Shown here: positions 1 to 4,869 of the stretch, one piece after another
How the letters are laid out: each line of letters starts with the position of its first letter
How positions within the stretch are numbered: position 1 is the first letter of the stretch
Assembly: GCF_019972315.1 (NCBI RefSeq)
Contig: NZ_BLIZ01000001.1
Location: forward strand, 2,517,521 to 2,581,520
Direction: 5' to 3'
From: Geobacter sp. AOG1
Lineage (GTDB): Bacteria; Desulfobacterota; Desulfuromonadia; Geobacterales; Geobacteraceae
DNA: 64,000 nt
The notes under the pieces: model-generated
Databases searched by the model: none
Seen by the model: only the letters and a program-made list of their open reading frames with translations
What the model was told of the DNA's origin: nothing
Program-made: the position numbers and the translations under genes

Positions 1-883
1 CGGTAGCTACGGCAAATGTTGCGGAAATGGTATGATTGGCCGTTACATTGCTAAAGGTGTAATTGTAGCCACCCAGATTTGATGCCACCACTGTTCCGTC
101 AACTGTCACGCTAACCGTGTAGTAACCGATATTAGGGGTGATGGTGTACGCTTGACTTCCACCCGAGTTTACATTTGTTACGCCACTAGGGGAAATGCTG
201 CCGCCGGTGCCGGCAGTGGCGGTAACGGTAAAGGCACTGGACGTGGTTAGACTTGCAAAGGTAGCAGTCATGGTGTGGTTGGCGGTGATGTTGGAGAAGG
301 TATAGCTGGTGACTGCACCAACAGAGGTCCCATCAATCGTCACGTTAGCAATACTGTAACCGGAGCTAGGTGTTATGGAGAATGCTTGGGTTGCACCCTG
401 GGTGACCGTGACGGAGGTGATAGTGGATGTTCCGCTGGTGGCGGTGCTTGTCGTTATGCTACCAACCGGTGATATCGTACCCCCAGCGCCGGCAGTTGCC
501 GTCAGGGAGTAGGTGAAAGGAAGTGTCTTGCTAACCTCGTTGGAGTACCCACTCGTATTGCCAGCAGCGTCATAATCTACAGCGGCAAAATAATAGGTTG
601 AACCATCCGAGAGATTATTTACGGTATACGAGGTTACATTTCCCACGTCGATGGTCTGGGTATAGGTGCCGGAGGCATTTCCCATCGCGAGTTTGTAGCC
701 ACTGACACCCGTAAAGGGGGTCCCGTCGGCATTGACTGGCGGATTCCATGTCAGTGTCGTCTGAGCGGCACGGGCATAGGTTGATGCGAGGTGGATCACC
801 ATGATAGTCATTAACACCATTATGACTAATGAGCGATAGAAGTAATGTTCGAACTTATTTTGTGTCAGGCAGAGAGTTTTCAC
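1..883 (-). CDS. Secreted fibronectin-III / InlB-B-repeat protein (3' end outside window)
   Basis: The frame starts with GTG at 883-881, 8 nt after GGAGGT (892-897 region), and stays open to the window edge, so the C-terminus is missing. A hydrophobic signal segment is followed by a fibronectin type III domain beginning at an AAQTTLTW motif, then two complete copies of the divergent InlB B-repeat type (motifs TATAGAGGTISP and TATAGTGGSISP, each ending in NHT-TATF-like text). The FN3 part is about 70% identical by eye to that of the neighbour at 1417-2310, so the two are paralogues. Export to the surface or periplasm is inferred. The leader carries two riboswitches, making this a cyclic-dinucleotide-controlled gene. 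No catalytic domain is visible; adhesion or matrix binding is only a guess. Confidence 0.85.
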   Translation of the reverse strand, partial: MKTLCLTQNKFEHYFYRSLVIMVLMTIMVIHLASTYARAAQTTLTWNPPVNADGTPFTGVSGYKLAMGNASGTYTQTIDVGNVTSYTVNNLSDGSTYYFAAVDYDAAGNTSGYSNEVSKTLPFTYSLTATAGAGGTISPVGSITTSTATSGTSTITSVTVTQGATQAFSITPSSGYSIANVTIDGTSVGAVTSYTFSNITANHTMTATFASLTTSSAFTVTATAGTGGSISPSGVTNVNSGGSQAYTITPNIGYYTVSVTVDGTVVASNLGGYNYTFSNVTANHTISATFAVAT

Positions 884-1294: not shown

Positions 1295-1310
1295 TGTGAC
1301 CCTTATCACA
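1295..1310. promoter_or_regulatory. CRP-type operator, perfect TGTGA-N6-TCACA (site A)
   Basis: TGTGACCCTTATCACA is an exact match to the E. coli CRP core consensus. Its centre is about 61 nt upstream of the copy 2 aptamer, the same distance as site B (2526-2541) from copy 3. On the minus strand, a TATACT (1267-1262) further downstream could be a -10 element. The likely binder is the CRP-family protein encoded at 2807-3529, whose recognition helix keeps the contacts that read TGTGA. Confidence 0.75.
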
Positions 1311-1416
1311 TGTTTTGCATGTATTTTGTTAGAAACATTTTAAATATCTTGCCTCCAAGCTGCTTATTGATAATGACTACAGTAAAACTGGGGCAGGTTG
1401 GTGTGGTACGTTGTAA

Positions 1417-2310
1417 TTACCAAGTAACCAATCCAACAGCTCTTCGCAGAATGAGGAGCGCGTCATTCAGATTGACAATTCCATCACCCAGCGGCTTGCC
1501 TGATGCATCGAGTGGCCAGATGTCGGCCCGTGATTTTTGATCGGCCGTCAGTTGCGTGTTATTGGTGACGGATCGGAGGACGGTAAGTGCATCGGCGAGA
1601 GATACGACACCGTCACTGTCAATATCCCCTTTGAGTGGGGAGGTACTGGTGGTCGTGGTGAAGTTAGCCGTGATTGAGTGGTTGCTGTTTATGTTGTTGA
1701 AGGTATAAACAGTAATTTTGCCGACCGAGATCCCATCGACTGTAACATTTGATATCTGGTAGCCCTGATTTGCCGTCACGGTGAAAGAGACGCTGGTGCC
1801 CTGGGATGCAGTGACGGTTTTAATGATCGAAATCTGGTTGGTGGCCTGGTTTACACTGACAGTTCCCTGGGGTGTTATCGTGCCACCGTTTCCCGCGGTT
1901 GCCGTAATCTGGTAGGAAGCAGGGACGGAGGTGGTCGACGGAGCGGGAAACGCCCTACTTACTTCGTTGGAGAAGCCGCTTTCGTTACCGGCAGTGTCAT
2001 AATCGGTAACAACGAAATAATAGGTTGTCCCATCTGCCAAGCTGCCGATGGTATAGCTTGTTACGTTGCCGGTGTCGACACTCTGAGTGTAGGTGCCGGA
2101 TGCCGTCCCGAAATACAGGTGGTATCCGGCAACACCGGTGAACGGAGTCCCGTCGGGGTTAACCGGCGGGGCCCATGCGAGGGTCGTCTGTGCAGCCAGG
2201 GTCGTGTTCGGGGAAAAAAGCGGGAGGGAAAGAGAGAGAAAAAGAAGGAGAAAGAGTCTTTGAATCGGGTTGACGCCAAGATGGTGTCTTGTTTCAAGGG
2301 CTCTAAGCAT
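1417..2310 (-). CDS. Secreted FN3 / InlB-B-repeat / dockerin-like protein
   Basis: ATG at 2310 is chosen because GGAGGT lies 10 nt upstream; an in-frame ATG 36 nt further 5' has no such site. The 297-residue product has a signal peptide (about 15-40), a fibronectin III domain (about 42-125), a divergent InlB B-repeat (about 135-230) and a C-terminal dockerin-like pair of calcium-loop repeats (GDIDSDGVVSLADAL near 230; DGIVNLNDALLILRR near 280). Dockerin-like repeats usually bind calcium and cohesin-like partners. The gene follows two cGAMP-type riboswitches and a CRP-type site, so cyclic nucleotide control is expected. It is paralogous to the truncated gene at 1-883. The biochemical role is unknown. 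Confidence 0.88.
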   Translation of the reverse strand: MLRALETRHHLGVNPIQRLFLLLFLSLSLPLFSPNTTLAAQTTLAWAPPVNPDGTPFTGVAGYHLYFGTASGTYTQSVDTGNVTSYTIGSLADGTTYYFVVTDYDTAGNESGFSNEVSRAFPAPSTTSVPASYQITATAGNGGTITPQGTVSVNQATNQISIIKTVTASQGTSVSFTVTANQGYQISNVTVDGISVGKITVYTFNNINSNHSITANFTTTTSTSPLKGDIDSDGVVSLADALTVLRSVTNNTQLTADQKSRADIWPLDASGKPLGDGIVNLNDALLILRRAVGLVTW

Positions 2311-2362
2311 GTCGGTTACTACCTCCATAAATTGCCCCGGAAACACGACGGCCTGAACGTAG

Positions 2363-2472
2363 AAAAGCCGGGGGCAAAATATCTATGAAGGATATTTCGG
2401 CGACCCGGCTGTCTCAGTGAGACCCTTAGGCTTTCCGTCCCATCCTTGCGGATGGTTTAGTATTGTCGTGTA
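2363..2472 (-). ncRNA. GEMM-Ib riboswitch, 3',3'-cGAMP type, with terminator (copy 3)
   Basis: Nearly identical to copy 2 (1130-1241): AATACTAAACC, GGATGGGACGGAAAGCC, AAGGGTCTCACTGAGAC and AGCCGGGTCGCCG are present on the minus strand. The discriminating base is A (plus T2461), predicting 3',3'-cGAMP. AGCCGGG can pair with CCCGGCT just before the TTTT at 2366-2363, giving a competing terminator. The FN3/dockerin gene starts about 50 nt after the terminator, so this is its direct cis-regulator. Confidence 0.92.
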
Positions 2473-2525
2473 TCTCTTCTATGCAATTGTTACGTACACT
2501 AATACATGAATCTTCGAGAAGTAGT

Positions 2526-2541
2526 TGTGACCTGTGTCACA
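2526..2541. promoter_or_regulatory. CRP-type operator, perfect TGTGA-N6-TCACA (site B)
   Basis: TGTGACCTGTGTCACA has two perfect half sites. It lies about 61 nt upstream of the copy 3 aptamer. The flanking sequence (TTCTCGAA on one side, GCA-ATA-TTTTGTTA-like text on the other) is recognisably shared with site A, so operator, leader and FN3 gene were duplicated as a unit. It falls between riboswitch copies 4 and 3, so copy 3 can be transcribed from its own promoter. Confidence 0.75.
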
Positions 2542-2622
2542 GGTTTTGCATATATTTTGTTAAAAGTATTTAACTATCACATGTTTCCCGAGCTTTTCAT
2601 CATAAATATGGTTTTTGAATAC

Positions 2623-2732
2623 AAAAAAGCCGGGGCTGAATATCGATTAGATATTTCGGCGACCCGGCTGTCTCGGTGAGACCCTTGGGCTTTCCGTCCC
2701 ATCCTTGCGGATGGTTTAGTATTGTCGTCTAT
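2623..2732 (-). ncRNA. GEMM-Ib riboswitch, 3',3'-cGAMP type, with terminator (copy 4)
   Basis: The minus strand contains GACAATACTAAACC, GGATGGGACGGAAAGCC, AAGGGTCTCACCGAGAC and AGCCGGGTCGCCG. The discriminating base is A (plus T2720). AGCCGGG pairs with CCCCGGCT ahead of a six-T run (2628-2623). No gene follows it directly: only about 80 nt separate its terminator from CRP site B. It is either an orphan left after gene loss or the first element of a longer leader ending at the 1417-2310 gene. A strong promoter for it was not seen; readthrough from the CRP-family gene, which ends 75 nt upstream, is possible. Confidence 0.9.
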
Positions 2733-2806
2733 CCTCTGTTGTTGTTTTCGGAGAAAATAGCTACACAATTTTGAAGAGAAAGTCAATAAAAAAATTCGTT
2801 TCTATT

Positions 2807-3529
2807 TTACAAGCACTGTAATTTGTTGAAGAAATTAGTTTTGACGAGGATGTTCTTGTTGGTGAGGATTTCAATTTCTCCCTCGCTGGTGAGTTTTCCG
2901 AGCAGACGGGTTGCTGTTTCGCGGGATACTGAGGCATAATCGGCAATTTGTTTGTGAGTCAGTTTCAGGGAGATCATTACTCCTCTCTGTTCTTTGATTC
3001 CATAAAGTCTTGCCATGCTATTAAGGACTTCCCTGAGCCGTTGTTCAGCATTTGCAAAGCTCATGGCCTTGAGCATCAGAAGCGATTCCCTGAATCTTGC
3101 ACAAAGCATGGTAATAATATTCAAAAGAACATTGTTGTTTTTCAACATGAGTTTTTCAAAGTCCTGTTTTGCGAGAAGACCTATTACCGTGTCTTCCATG
3201 GCAATAACCGATGCTGGAGCGGTCTTGCCGTCAAGAAGACCCATTTCGCCAAAAAAATCACCCCTTTTATGGATGGCCAGTATCCGCTCCTTGCCGTCTT
3301 CGCTCTGATGAACGGCCCGTACCTTGCCGGAATAAACGACATACATGAAGTTAGGGGTGTCTTCTTCAAACAGCACTACCTGGTTTTTGCAAATGCGCTT
3401 GGAAACAAGGAGTTTTTCAATCTCAGCAAGTTCGTTTTTGTTCATACAGGAAAAAAAAGGTATGTTTTTGAGCACATCCCCGGAGCGTGCTTTTGGTCTA
3501 ACATTGAAGGGTTGCACGTAAGCGCTCAT
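2807..3529 (-). CDS. CRP/FNR-family transcriptional regulator
   Basis: ATG at 3529 is preferred over an in-frame TTG at 3535 because AGGGAGG lies 9 nt ahead of it. The 240-residue protein has an N-terminal cyclic-nucleotide-type beta barrel (about 25-120) and a C-terminal winged helix (about 160-235). The recognition helix reads SRETATR (202-208), keeping the Arg, Glu and Arg that in E. coli CRP contact TGTGA. In the pocket (95-109, GEMGLLDGKTAPAS) the usual Arg-Ser that hold the cAMP phosphate are replaced, so classical cAMP binding is doubtful. There is no FNR-type cysteine cluster. It is followed by riboswitches and two perfect TGTGA-N6-TCACA sites, its probable targets. Confidence 0.85.
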   Translation of the reverse strand: MSAYVQPFNVRPKARSGDVLKNIPFFSCMNKNELAEIEKLLVSKRICKNQVVLFEEDTPNFMYVVYSGKVRAVHQSEDGKERILAIHKRGDFFGEMGLLDGKTAPASVIAMEDTVIGLLAKQDFEKLMLKNNNVLLNIITMLCARFRESLLMLKAMSFANAEQRLREVLNSMARLYGIKEQRGVMISLKLTHKQIADYASVSRETATRLLGKLTSEGEIEILTNKNILVKTNFFNKLQCL

Positions 3530-3557
3530 ATTCAAGTCCCTCCCTCAGTATAAGGCA

Positions 3558-3678: not shown

Positions 3679-4869
3679 ATGTCCCAGGAACTCTGCGAAA
3701 TGTCCCTGCGACAGACACAGGAGTTGCTGAGACTTACCGACGAAGCTTTGCAGGAAATCTGCTGCAAGCGCTTTACGGGTGAGGAGCTTTCTGTCAAGGC
3801 ACTCCAAATGGTTCTGAAAGGGAAGGGGCGGCGAGGTCCCACCAGTGTTTTCGTTGCTTTTAACGGGGAAGTCGATGGTTTGTTGCGCGGCCGAGTTTTT
3901 CATCTCCATGATGGGGAAATCGTGGAGCGTTCGGAAGAGATTGCCGTCAATACTTTAATCGGTTACGCCAATTTTGTCGGCATCGCCGGAGCACATGCCG
4001 ATGTAGTTGTTTCCAATTGGAGCGACAGTTGTGAGTCGGTTGAAAAATACCAGGAATTTTTCCCTACGGTGGTAAAGGAGGTTGTTGGTTATGCGATCAG
4101 GAACTTCGTTACCTACCGGATAAGCGGCGAGACTCCTGGTGCCATAATCGCTTTCAATTATCCAGGGCGTGCCACCGATTATGATGCAGATGTTCTTCGT
4201 GGACTTGCGGTAGTCATCGGTTCCGTATTTACCATATCCGACCAGATGAGGGAGACCGAAAAGGCTTTCATCTATACCATCGAGGCATTGGCCAGGGCCT
4301 GCGAGGCAGCTGAAGAGGATACCGGCAAGCACATTCTTAGGGTTAACCGCTATGCCGGTGCACTGGCGGCAAATATGGGGCTTCCTGCCGACTATGTTGA
4401 AGTTATAACCTATTCGGCACAGATGCACGATGTGGGCAAAATAAAAGTACCCGCGGCTATCCTTCTCAAGGAAGGACCTTTGGACGAACGGGAGTTGGGC
4501 GTCATCAGGATGCACCCGGTCTACGGAGAACAGATACTGGGAGATTCACCACGTTTGCGGATTGCACGGGAGATCGCTCTTTCCCATCATGAGAACTGGG
4601 ATGGGAGCGGTTATCCAAACGGCTTGCGAGGAGAAGACATTCCTTTGTCGGGACGCATTGTAAAACTGGCTGATGTCTATGACGCGCTTCGGTCACGACG
4701 GAGTTACAAGCCACCCCTGTGCCATGCCGAGGCGATAGGCGTTTTTCGTGACGGAGACCATCGTATCGATCCCAGGAACCACTTCGATCCGAACCTGTTG
4801 ACGATATTTTTTAAAATAGAGCATATGTTTGAACATATTTACGATAGCTTTGCGGGCGAAAATCTTTAA
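3679..4869 (+). CDS. HD-GYP domain cyclic-dinucleotide phosphodiesterase
   Basis: ATG at 3679 follows GAGAGGAG. The 396-residue protein has an N-terminal region of about 190 residues that resembles a GAF-like sensor and a C-terminal HD-GYP domain. Visible catalytic motifs are the HD pair in MHDVGK (249-254) and HHENWDGSGYP (303-313), with the GYP intact. HD-GYP enzymes hydrolyse c-di-GMP, and some in Vibrio and Myxococcus hydrolyse 3',3'-cGAMP. Its position beside cGAMP- and c-di-GMP-type riboswitches makes either substrate plausible; sequence alone does not decide. No membrane segment is seen, so it is probably cytosolic. Confidence 0.88.
   Translation: MSQELCEMSLRQTQELLRLTDEALQEICCKRFTGEELSVKALQMVLKGKGRRGPTSVFVAFNGEVDGLLRGRVFHLHDGEIVERSEEIAVNTLIGYANFVGIAGAHADVVVSNWSDSCESVEKYQEFFPTVVKEVVGYAIRNFVTYRISGETPGAIIAFNYPGRATDYDADVLRGLAVVIGSVFTISDQMRETEKAFIYTIEALARACEAAEEDTGKHILRVNRYAGALAANMGLPADYVEVITYSAQMHDVGKIKVPAAILLKEGPLDERELGVIRMHPVYGEQILGDSPRLRIAREIALSHHENWDGSGYPNGLRGEDIPLSGRIVKLADVYDALRSRRSYKPPLCHAEAIGVFRDGDHRIDPRNHFDPNLLTIFFKIEHMFEHIYDSFAGENL

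Follow-up and report, generated by a model that had tools for sequence, protein, structure and literature searches.

We describe a two-tier control module in the genome of Geobacter sp. AOG1, in which the genes for two secreted FN3 proteins lie behind palindromic CRP-type sites and GEMM-I riboswitches, next to the gene for a CRP/FNR-family regulator. The module is located in a stretch of 64,000 nucleotides (nt) that was analyzed as a whole and is referred to as the window (assembly GCF_019972315.1, contig NZ_BLIZ01000001.1, positions 2,517,521 to 2,581,520 of the forward strand), and it is both real and conserved. With a probability of roughly three in four, we read it as a two-input gate on the FN3 genes, formed by a class II CRP-like activator that is independent of cyclic AMP (cAMP) and by cyclic-dinucleotide riboswitches. 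The elements follow each other on the minus strand in the order regulator gene, aptamer, site, aptamer, FN3 gene, site, aptamer, aptamer, FN3 gene, the unit of promoter, riboswitch and gene being present in the window as a duplication. Between the two copies of this unit, the aptamers are identical at 73 of 76 positions and the terminators at 34 of 35, and the FN3 proteins share 50% identity over 210 amino acids.

Palindromic sites and promoter geometry

Two perfect palindromes had been reported in a preliminary description of this DNA, and both were found at the places given there. Site A, TGTGATAAGGGTCACA, occupies positions 1295 to 1310 of the window and site B, TGTGACACAGGTCACA, positions 2526 to 2541, both on the minus strand and both matching TGTGA-N6-TCACA exactly. 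No other exact match occurs in the 64 kb, where 0.03 would be expected, and none of 100 shuffled sequences contained two. The arms are unchanged between sites A and B and 3 of the 6 spacer bases differ, such that 13 of 16 positions are identical overall. The entire 3.68-Mb genome contains 4 exact matches, the remaining two of which are coding (one in a run of haem CXXCH codons, the other in an open reading frame (ORF) for a membrane protein). When up to one mismatch to TGTGAYNNNNRTCACA was allowed, 11 matches were obtained in the genome. Nine of these lie within ORFs, several of them in CXXCH haem codons, and the two that lie outside any ORF of 100 amino acids are the two window sites, each with a −10-like hexamer at 21 nt. 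In the regions fetched around the 19 GEMM-I aptamers of the genome, an exact or one-mismatch site is present at the two window promoters only, the matches near these aptamers in regions L017 and L018 being the coding ones. The regulator appears to be dedicated to two neighbouring genes in Geobacter sp. AOG1. It should be noted here that the haem CXXCH codons (TGT-N6-TGT-CAC) of multihaem cytochrome genes imitate TGTGAN6TCACA in the loci L198, L199 and L202, and that spurious CRP sites can arise in this way in Geobacter.

The geometry of the promoters was derived from 36 non-redundant promoters of the Geobacter order (44 distinct), in which up to one mismatch in the site was allowed. The resulting logo shows the site as TGTGA-Y-N4-R-TCACA, followed by a −10 hexamer, TAtAAt, that begins 21 nt past the site and places the site centre at −41.5. 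It also shows a G at −14, an A-rich start and no −35 signal. At the window promoters, predicted −10 boxes are found 21 nt after site B (TATTAG, 2499 to 2504, with a start inferred near 2492) and 21 nt after site A (TAATAG, 1268 to 1273, with a start inferred near 1261), which gives both sites a predicted centre of −41.5. A site centred at −41.5 is the arrangement of class II CRP promoters. With the start sites predicted in this way, the window promoters have both the class II centre and a −10 box without a −35 element, and activation is therefore the natural reading: the regulator appears to activate these promoters, as judged from their sequences. A class I arrangement, with the site near −61 and transcription starting at the aptamer, was considered and rejected because the −10 box sits 21 nt past the site.

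The preliminary description had attached weight to an identical distance of about 61 nt between each site and its riboswitch leader. The distance is indeed equal for both sites (62.5 nt from the site centre to the start of the next aptamer), but this is no independent evidence because the unit is duplicated. Moreover, the spacing from the start of the site to A18 of the aptamer varies from 69 to 88 nt across the logo promoters, and it is the distance from the site to the −10 box that is conserved.

Riboswitches and target genes

The two riboswitch leaders of the preliminary description correspond to two aptamers that have a site upstream, but the region holds four GEMM-I aptamers according to Rfam (RF01051), all on the minus strand. 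The first (2655 to 2730; 47.1 bits) is located between the stop codon of the regulator gene and site B, and is accompanied by a terminator-like hairpin. Site B precedes the second (2396 to 2471; 49.5 bits), which is followed by an intrinsic-terminator-like hairpin with a U-run (2361 to 2395; fold z = −3.90). The aptamer contributes its 3′ side to this strong hairpin, so that the folding of the leader points to an ON switch. The aptamer behind site A (1165 to 1240; 48.6 bits) likewise has a strong terminator-like hairpin of this kind, with a U-run (1130 to 1164; fold z = −2.75), and it is followed by a second, tandem aptamer (957 to 1048; 80.1 bits).

The residue equivalent to G20 of Vc2 is an A in three of the window aptamers (AATACTAAACC) and a G in the tandem one (AAGGGCAAACC). 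We take an A at this position to mark the cyclic GMP-AMP (cGAMP) type, in agreement with Geobacter GEMM-Ib (PMC6456294). By their GEMM-I fold and A20, the three aptamers are thus classified from sequence as GEMM-Ib (cGAMP) type, and the G20 aptamer as cyclic di-GMP (c-di-GMP) type. The succession of a cGAMP-type aptamer (1240 to 1165) and a c-di-GMP-type aptamer (1048 to 957) before one gene makes a two-nucleotide RNA gate possible. Position 20 of Vc2 guides selectivity among cyclic dinucleotides, as described in PMC9262584. Residue 20 was read by eye in the 19 aptamers of this genome, and throughout the Geobacter order, pattern matches of the A20 type outnumber those of the G20 type by 402 to 33 (about 92% A20). 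An A20-type aptamer lies behind all 43 of the 43 site promoters of the order. However, given the dominance of A20 in the order, this is weak evidence and largely a base-rate effect, and an argument for a shared ligand from the exclusivity of A20 was weakened by these counts. The same type of site is also found ahead of two variant aptamers, RF03167 (GGC) and RF03168 (UAU), beside regulator orthologs (L031:1347-1499 and L045:2161-2313).

The first target gene (1417 to 2346, minus strand) specifies a secreted FN3 and dockerin-like protein of 309 amino acids from a GTG start, with weak fn3 and Dockerin_1 matches below the Pfam cut-offs. The second (2 to 883, minus strand), which runs off the left end of the window, specifies a secreted FN3 protein with an fn3 score of 23.9 bits, just below the cut-off. 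Ten genes behind leaders with a site and a GEMM aptamer code mostly for FN3 plus Big_7 Ig-domain or dockerin proteins, with signal-like N-termini, and one of them is a subtilase with Big_7 domains. The targets are mostly secreted FN3/Ig proteins in several genera, and it is plausible that they serve surface attachment.

The regulator

The regulator gene (2807 to 3529, minus strand) codes for 240 amino acids from the ATG at 3529, a TTG at 3535 being a possible alternative start. Its product belongs to the CRP/FNR superfamily, as it matches PF00027 (87.2 bits), the helix-turn-helix profile HTH_Crp_2 (PF13545; 40.4 bits) and the Crp helix profile (PF00325; 28.9 bits), all above cut-off. Nevertheless, it scores 67.1 bits against the CRP equivalog NF008732, for which the cut-off is 266, and none of the curated NCBIfam equivalogs was reached. 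An AlphaFold model (predicted local distance difference test score (pLDDT) 76.8) supports the CRP fold, the top Foldseek matches being GlxR, MtbCRP and NtcA (E about 1e-17, TM about 0.5). The best match by sequence in the PDB is the Thermus CRP-family protein 4ev0.

The recognition helix reads S-R-E-T-A-T-R. The Arg, Glu and Arg residues that read TGTGA had been said to be retained, and this was borne out: R205, E206 and R210, which correspond to Arg180, Glu181 and Arg185 of CRP, are invariant in 29 of 29 orthologs, with RET-x-x-R kept throughout. The loss of the Arg-Ser pair that contacts the cAMP phosphate was confirmed as well. In an alignment with E. coli CRP (1g6n), Ala106-Pro107 (242-amino-acid numbering) stand at Arg82-Ser83 and Leu152 at Ser128, and the Arg82-Ser83 pair is replaced across all 29 aligned orthologs. 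Other residues that are invariant in this set are G96, E97, P107, A108, C145, R147 and R149. The genome yielded no match to class III (PF00211) or CYTH cyclases, class I cyclases not having been searched for. As anticipated in the preliminary description, cAMP is an unlikely ligand in view of the replaced pair and this cyclase search. Besides the regulator, the genome codes for one other protein with PF00027 (two in total), the helix of which, SETLSR, we take to be an FNR-like pattern.

Divergently from the regulator gene lies a gene for an HD-GYP-like protein (3679 to 4869, plus strand; HD_5, 104.8 bits), possibly a cyclic dinucleotide phosphodiesterase. We dropped it as a candidate member of the module since, among the loci examined, it adjoins the regulator only in the genus of the window.

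Conservation and co-occurrence in the Geobacter order

A pattern consisting of the site, 66 to 96 nt and a GEMM core was searched for in 141 genomes of the order, representing 29 genera. It was detected in 33 of these genomes and in 11 of the genera, with 43 matches in total and none in the reversed control. Orthologs of the regulator (more than 200 bits) are present in 79 of the 141 genomes: in 32 of the 33 genomes with the pattern versus 47 of the 108 others (Fisher p-value = 5e-9). When only the 107 genomes with A20-pattern aptamers were considered, the pattern was found in 32 of 75 with an ortholog versus 1 of 32 without (p-value = 1.2e-5), and a within-genus Cochran-Mantel-Haenszel test gave 22 observed against 12.5 expected co-occurrences (p-value = 1.3e-6). 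The promoters are often close to the ortholog (16 of 43 within 10 kb, 20 of 43 within 25 kb). Three others, all in single-contig genomes, are about 1 to 2 Mb away from it, and this suggests that the regulator may act from a distance.

In genomes without the ortholog, none of 12 A20 aptamers has a site with one mismatch or fewer, and the same holds for 9 A20 aptamers far from the ortholog in genomes that have it. Near the ortholog, in four genomes that contain no exact match, 4 of 7 A20 aptamers have a one-mismatch site. These four loci (L157, L170, L175 and L176) constitute the unselected test near the regulator, most of the 20 regions having been picked for holding a site. In five other loci (L165, L169, L171, L172 and L174) the search expression found no aptamer, and L167 contains only a G20 aptamer without a site. 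In tandem pairs of the control regions, one aptamer of the pair has no site. Taken together, the arrangement kept across genera, its co-occurrence with the ortholog at the genome level and the invariant helix indicate that the regulator likely binds both sites. The conservation and co-occurrence of the whole arrangement also suggest that promoter and riboswitch are functionally linked. Both points had been proposed in the preliminary description.

A scan of the GTDB for the pattern returned 61 stretches, about half of them from Geobacter relatives. Many of the others have no recognisable GEMM aptamer, and about a dozen have one, mostly of the G20 type. As the chance expectation, by our own rough estimate, is about 15 to 30, we did not count matches from beyond the order as support. 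Among individual loci, a Smithellaceae metagenome-assembled genome carries a CRP-type site and a GEMM-like element upstream of a CRP-family gene (31% identical; L126:1766-2661), which suggests autoregulation of that gene through a riboswitch. In two Myxococcota contigs from metagenome-assembled genomes (L083 and L127), TGTGAN6TCACA lies ahead of aptamers of the G20 (c-di-GMP) type, and −10-like hexamers are present at close to class II spacing.

Proposed mechanism and alternative explanations

We propose that the regulator has lost its use of cAMP and acts as an activator of the CRP/FNR family. It would bind TGTGA-Y-N4-R-TCACA centred at −41.5 at two promoters without an apparent −35 element, and would recruit RNA polymerase in the manner of class II CRP promoters. 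The transcript would next pass through a GEMM-I ON riboswitch of the cGAMP type that carries an intrinsic terminator and, in the left copy, also through a second aptamer of the c-di-GMP type. Such an arrangement would act as an AND gate, in that full-length mRNA for the FN3 surface proteins would require both an active regulator and the cyclic dinucleotide.

Several observations weigh against this proposal. Almost half of the promoters (19 of 43) are off the contig of the regulator, these being draft genomes, and 47 of the 79 genomes with an ortholog have no exact match to the pattern, so that some of the orthologs may control different genes or recognise degenerate sites. Joint inheritance of one linked gene cluster explains part of the co-occurrence. 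One genome that is 52% complete (G074) has the pattern, and the ortholog was not found in it. In G021, one of the three genomes with distant promoters, the ortholog has an in-frame stop. Class II geometry is compatible with repression under some conditions. Finally, the structural model is mediocre (predicted TM score 0.52). The modelling of the pocket region that the preliminary description had called for supported the fold but not the pocket, where loop 98 to 104 falls below 50 pLDDT, and because this loop is modelled unreliably no ligand was inferred from the structure. The regulator orthologs of two loci (L030 and L034) contain one in-frame stop codon each and are possibly decaying; one of the two genomes keeps a promoter with site and GEMM aptamer about 2 Mb away.

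The nature of the signal read by the regulator admits different explanations. That it is ordinary CRP, the sites reporting cAMP as at gbpA of Vibrio cholerae, would fit a site identical to the CRP consensus, the retained recognition residues of the helix-turn-helix and the occurrence of class III cyclases in 83 of the 141 genomes of the order. However, the replacement of Arg82-Ser83, the distance from the equivalog cut-off (67 versus 266) and the cyclase search of this genome, which turned up neither PF00211 nor CYTH and did not extend to class I cyclases, make this highly unlikely. In addition, PF00211 was found in 15 of the 33 genomes with sites and not in the other 18, and showed no association with the sites (p-value = 0.10). 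Somewhat better, though still low, are the prospects of a regulator that binds cGAMP or c-di-GMP, so that one messenger would be read by the protein at initiation and by the riboswitches at elongation in a coherent feed-forward loop. CRP relatives that bind c-di-GMP exist (Clp and Bcam1349), and the altered pocket with its invariant E97, P107, A108, C145, R147 and R149 and the A20-type aptamers at 43 of 43 promoters would agree with it, but the latter carry little weight at a background of about 92% A20, and the pocket loop is poorly modelled. Many CRP/FNR members without the Arg-Ser pair use other effectors or none, and the closest PDB sequence is that of Thermus 4ev0. We therefore consider it probable that the regulator is ligand-free or senses an unrelated cue (redox, haem or a metabolite) and delivers an independent signal to the gate, even though no specific effector has positive evidence.

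Other explanations concern the sites themselves. Since the two copies are clearly duplicated, the palindromes could be RNA hairpins or parts of a duplicated leader, with the spacing a mere result of duplication. This is extremely improbable, because the motif keeps a fixed distance to the −10 box in 36 non-redundant promoters, the pattern recurs in 11 of 29 genera, the site lies upstream of the predicted start, and the arms are kept while the spacer varies. Binding by another protein, either HcpR or an FNR-like paralog, has in its favour the Desulfovibrio HcpR motif TTGTGAN6TCACAA (PMC545781). But the only other of the two PF00027 proteins in the genome has an FNR-like helix, none of the targets is an hcp or a ferredoxin gene, and the genome-level association is with the ortholog of the regulator, so that we give this explanation very little credence.

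Relation to known systems

The closest known architecture is that of V. cholerae gbpA, where, according to PMC4545359, a cAMP-CRP site lies upstream of the Vc1 c-di-GMP riboswitch. In both cases, a site for a CRP-family activator precedes the GEMM-I leader of a gene for a secreted protein (a colonization protein for gbpA), and two nucleotide-linked inputs act, or would act, on one gene. However, gbpA combines true cAMP-CRP with c-di-GMP, whereas the Geobacter regulator lacks the cAMP-phosphate residues and is paired mainly with cGAMP-type aptamers. Unlike in the gbpA case as described there, the Geobacter regulator is linked to its targets and conserved over many genera. Within Geobacter, the GEMM-Ib riboswitches of pgcA/GSU1761 and the tandem GSU2885 have the same aptamer class, terminator/antiterminator ON logic and tandem arrangement (PMC6456294), and a text search of that paper and of PMC8835794 gave no match to Crp. 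Similarly, a GEMM riboswitch precedes the gene for the FNIII surface protein KN400_1971 of G. sulfurreducens, as in the window (PMC13194489), and Crp gave no match in a text search of that paper.

HcpR is a CRP/FNR protein that reads TTGTGAN6TCACAA when Arg180 is present, which resembles the site type of our regulator. In contrast to the predicted window targets, which are FN3/Ig secreted proteins and not hcp/frdX, HcpR controls hcp/frdX and sulfate reduction genes, and the portion of the account available describes no riboswitch link (PMC545781). MrpC of Myxococcus is likewise, by its description in the part of PMC8844925 at hand, a CRP-like protein tied to c-di-GMP/cGAMP signalling, but it acts on cyclase and phosphodiesterase genes rather than on riboswitch-led genes.

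cGAMP riboswitches control genes for extracellular electron transfer in Geobacter. In the literature searched, outside of which many subscription papers lie, we found no protein regulator of their promoters and no account in which a member of the CRP family accompanies such riboswitches. The conserved pairing of these riboswitches with a dedicated CRP-like activator suggests two-input gates and makes the missing input testable, and it offers a natural case in which one transcript may be surveyed by a protein sensor as well as an RNA sensor. If the regulator does sense a cyclic dinucleotide, the module would represent a coherent feed-forward gate of protein and RNA that is conserved through the Geobacter order.

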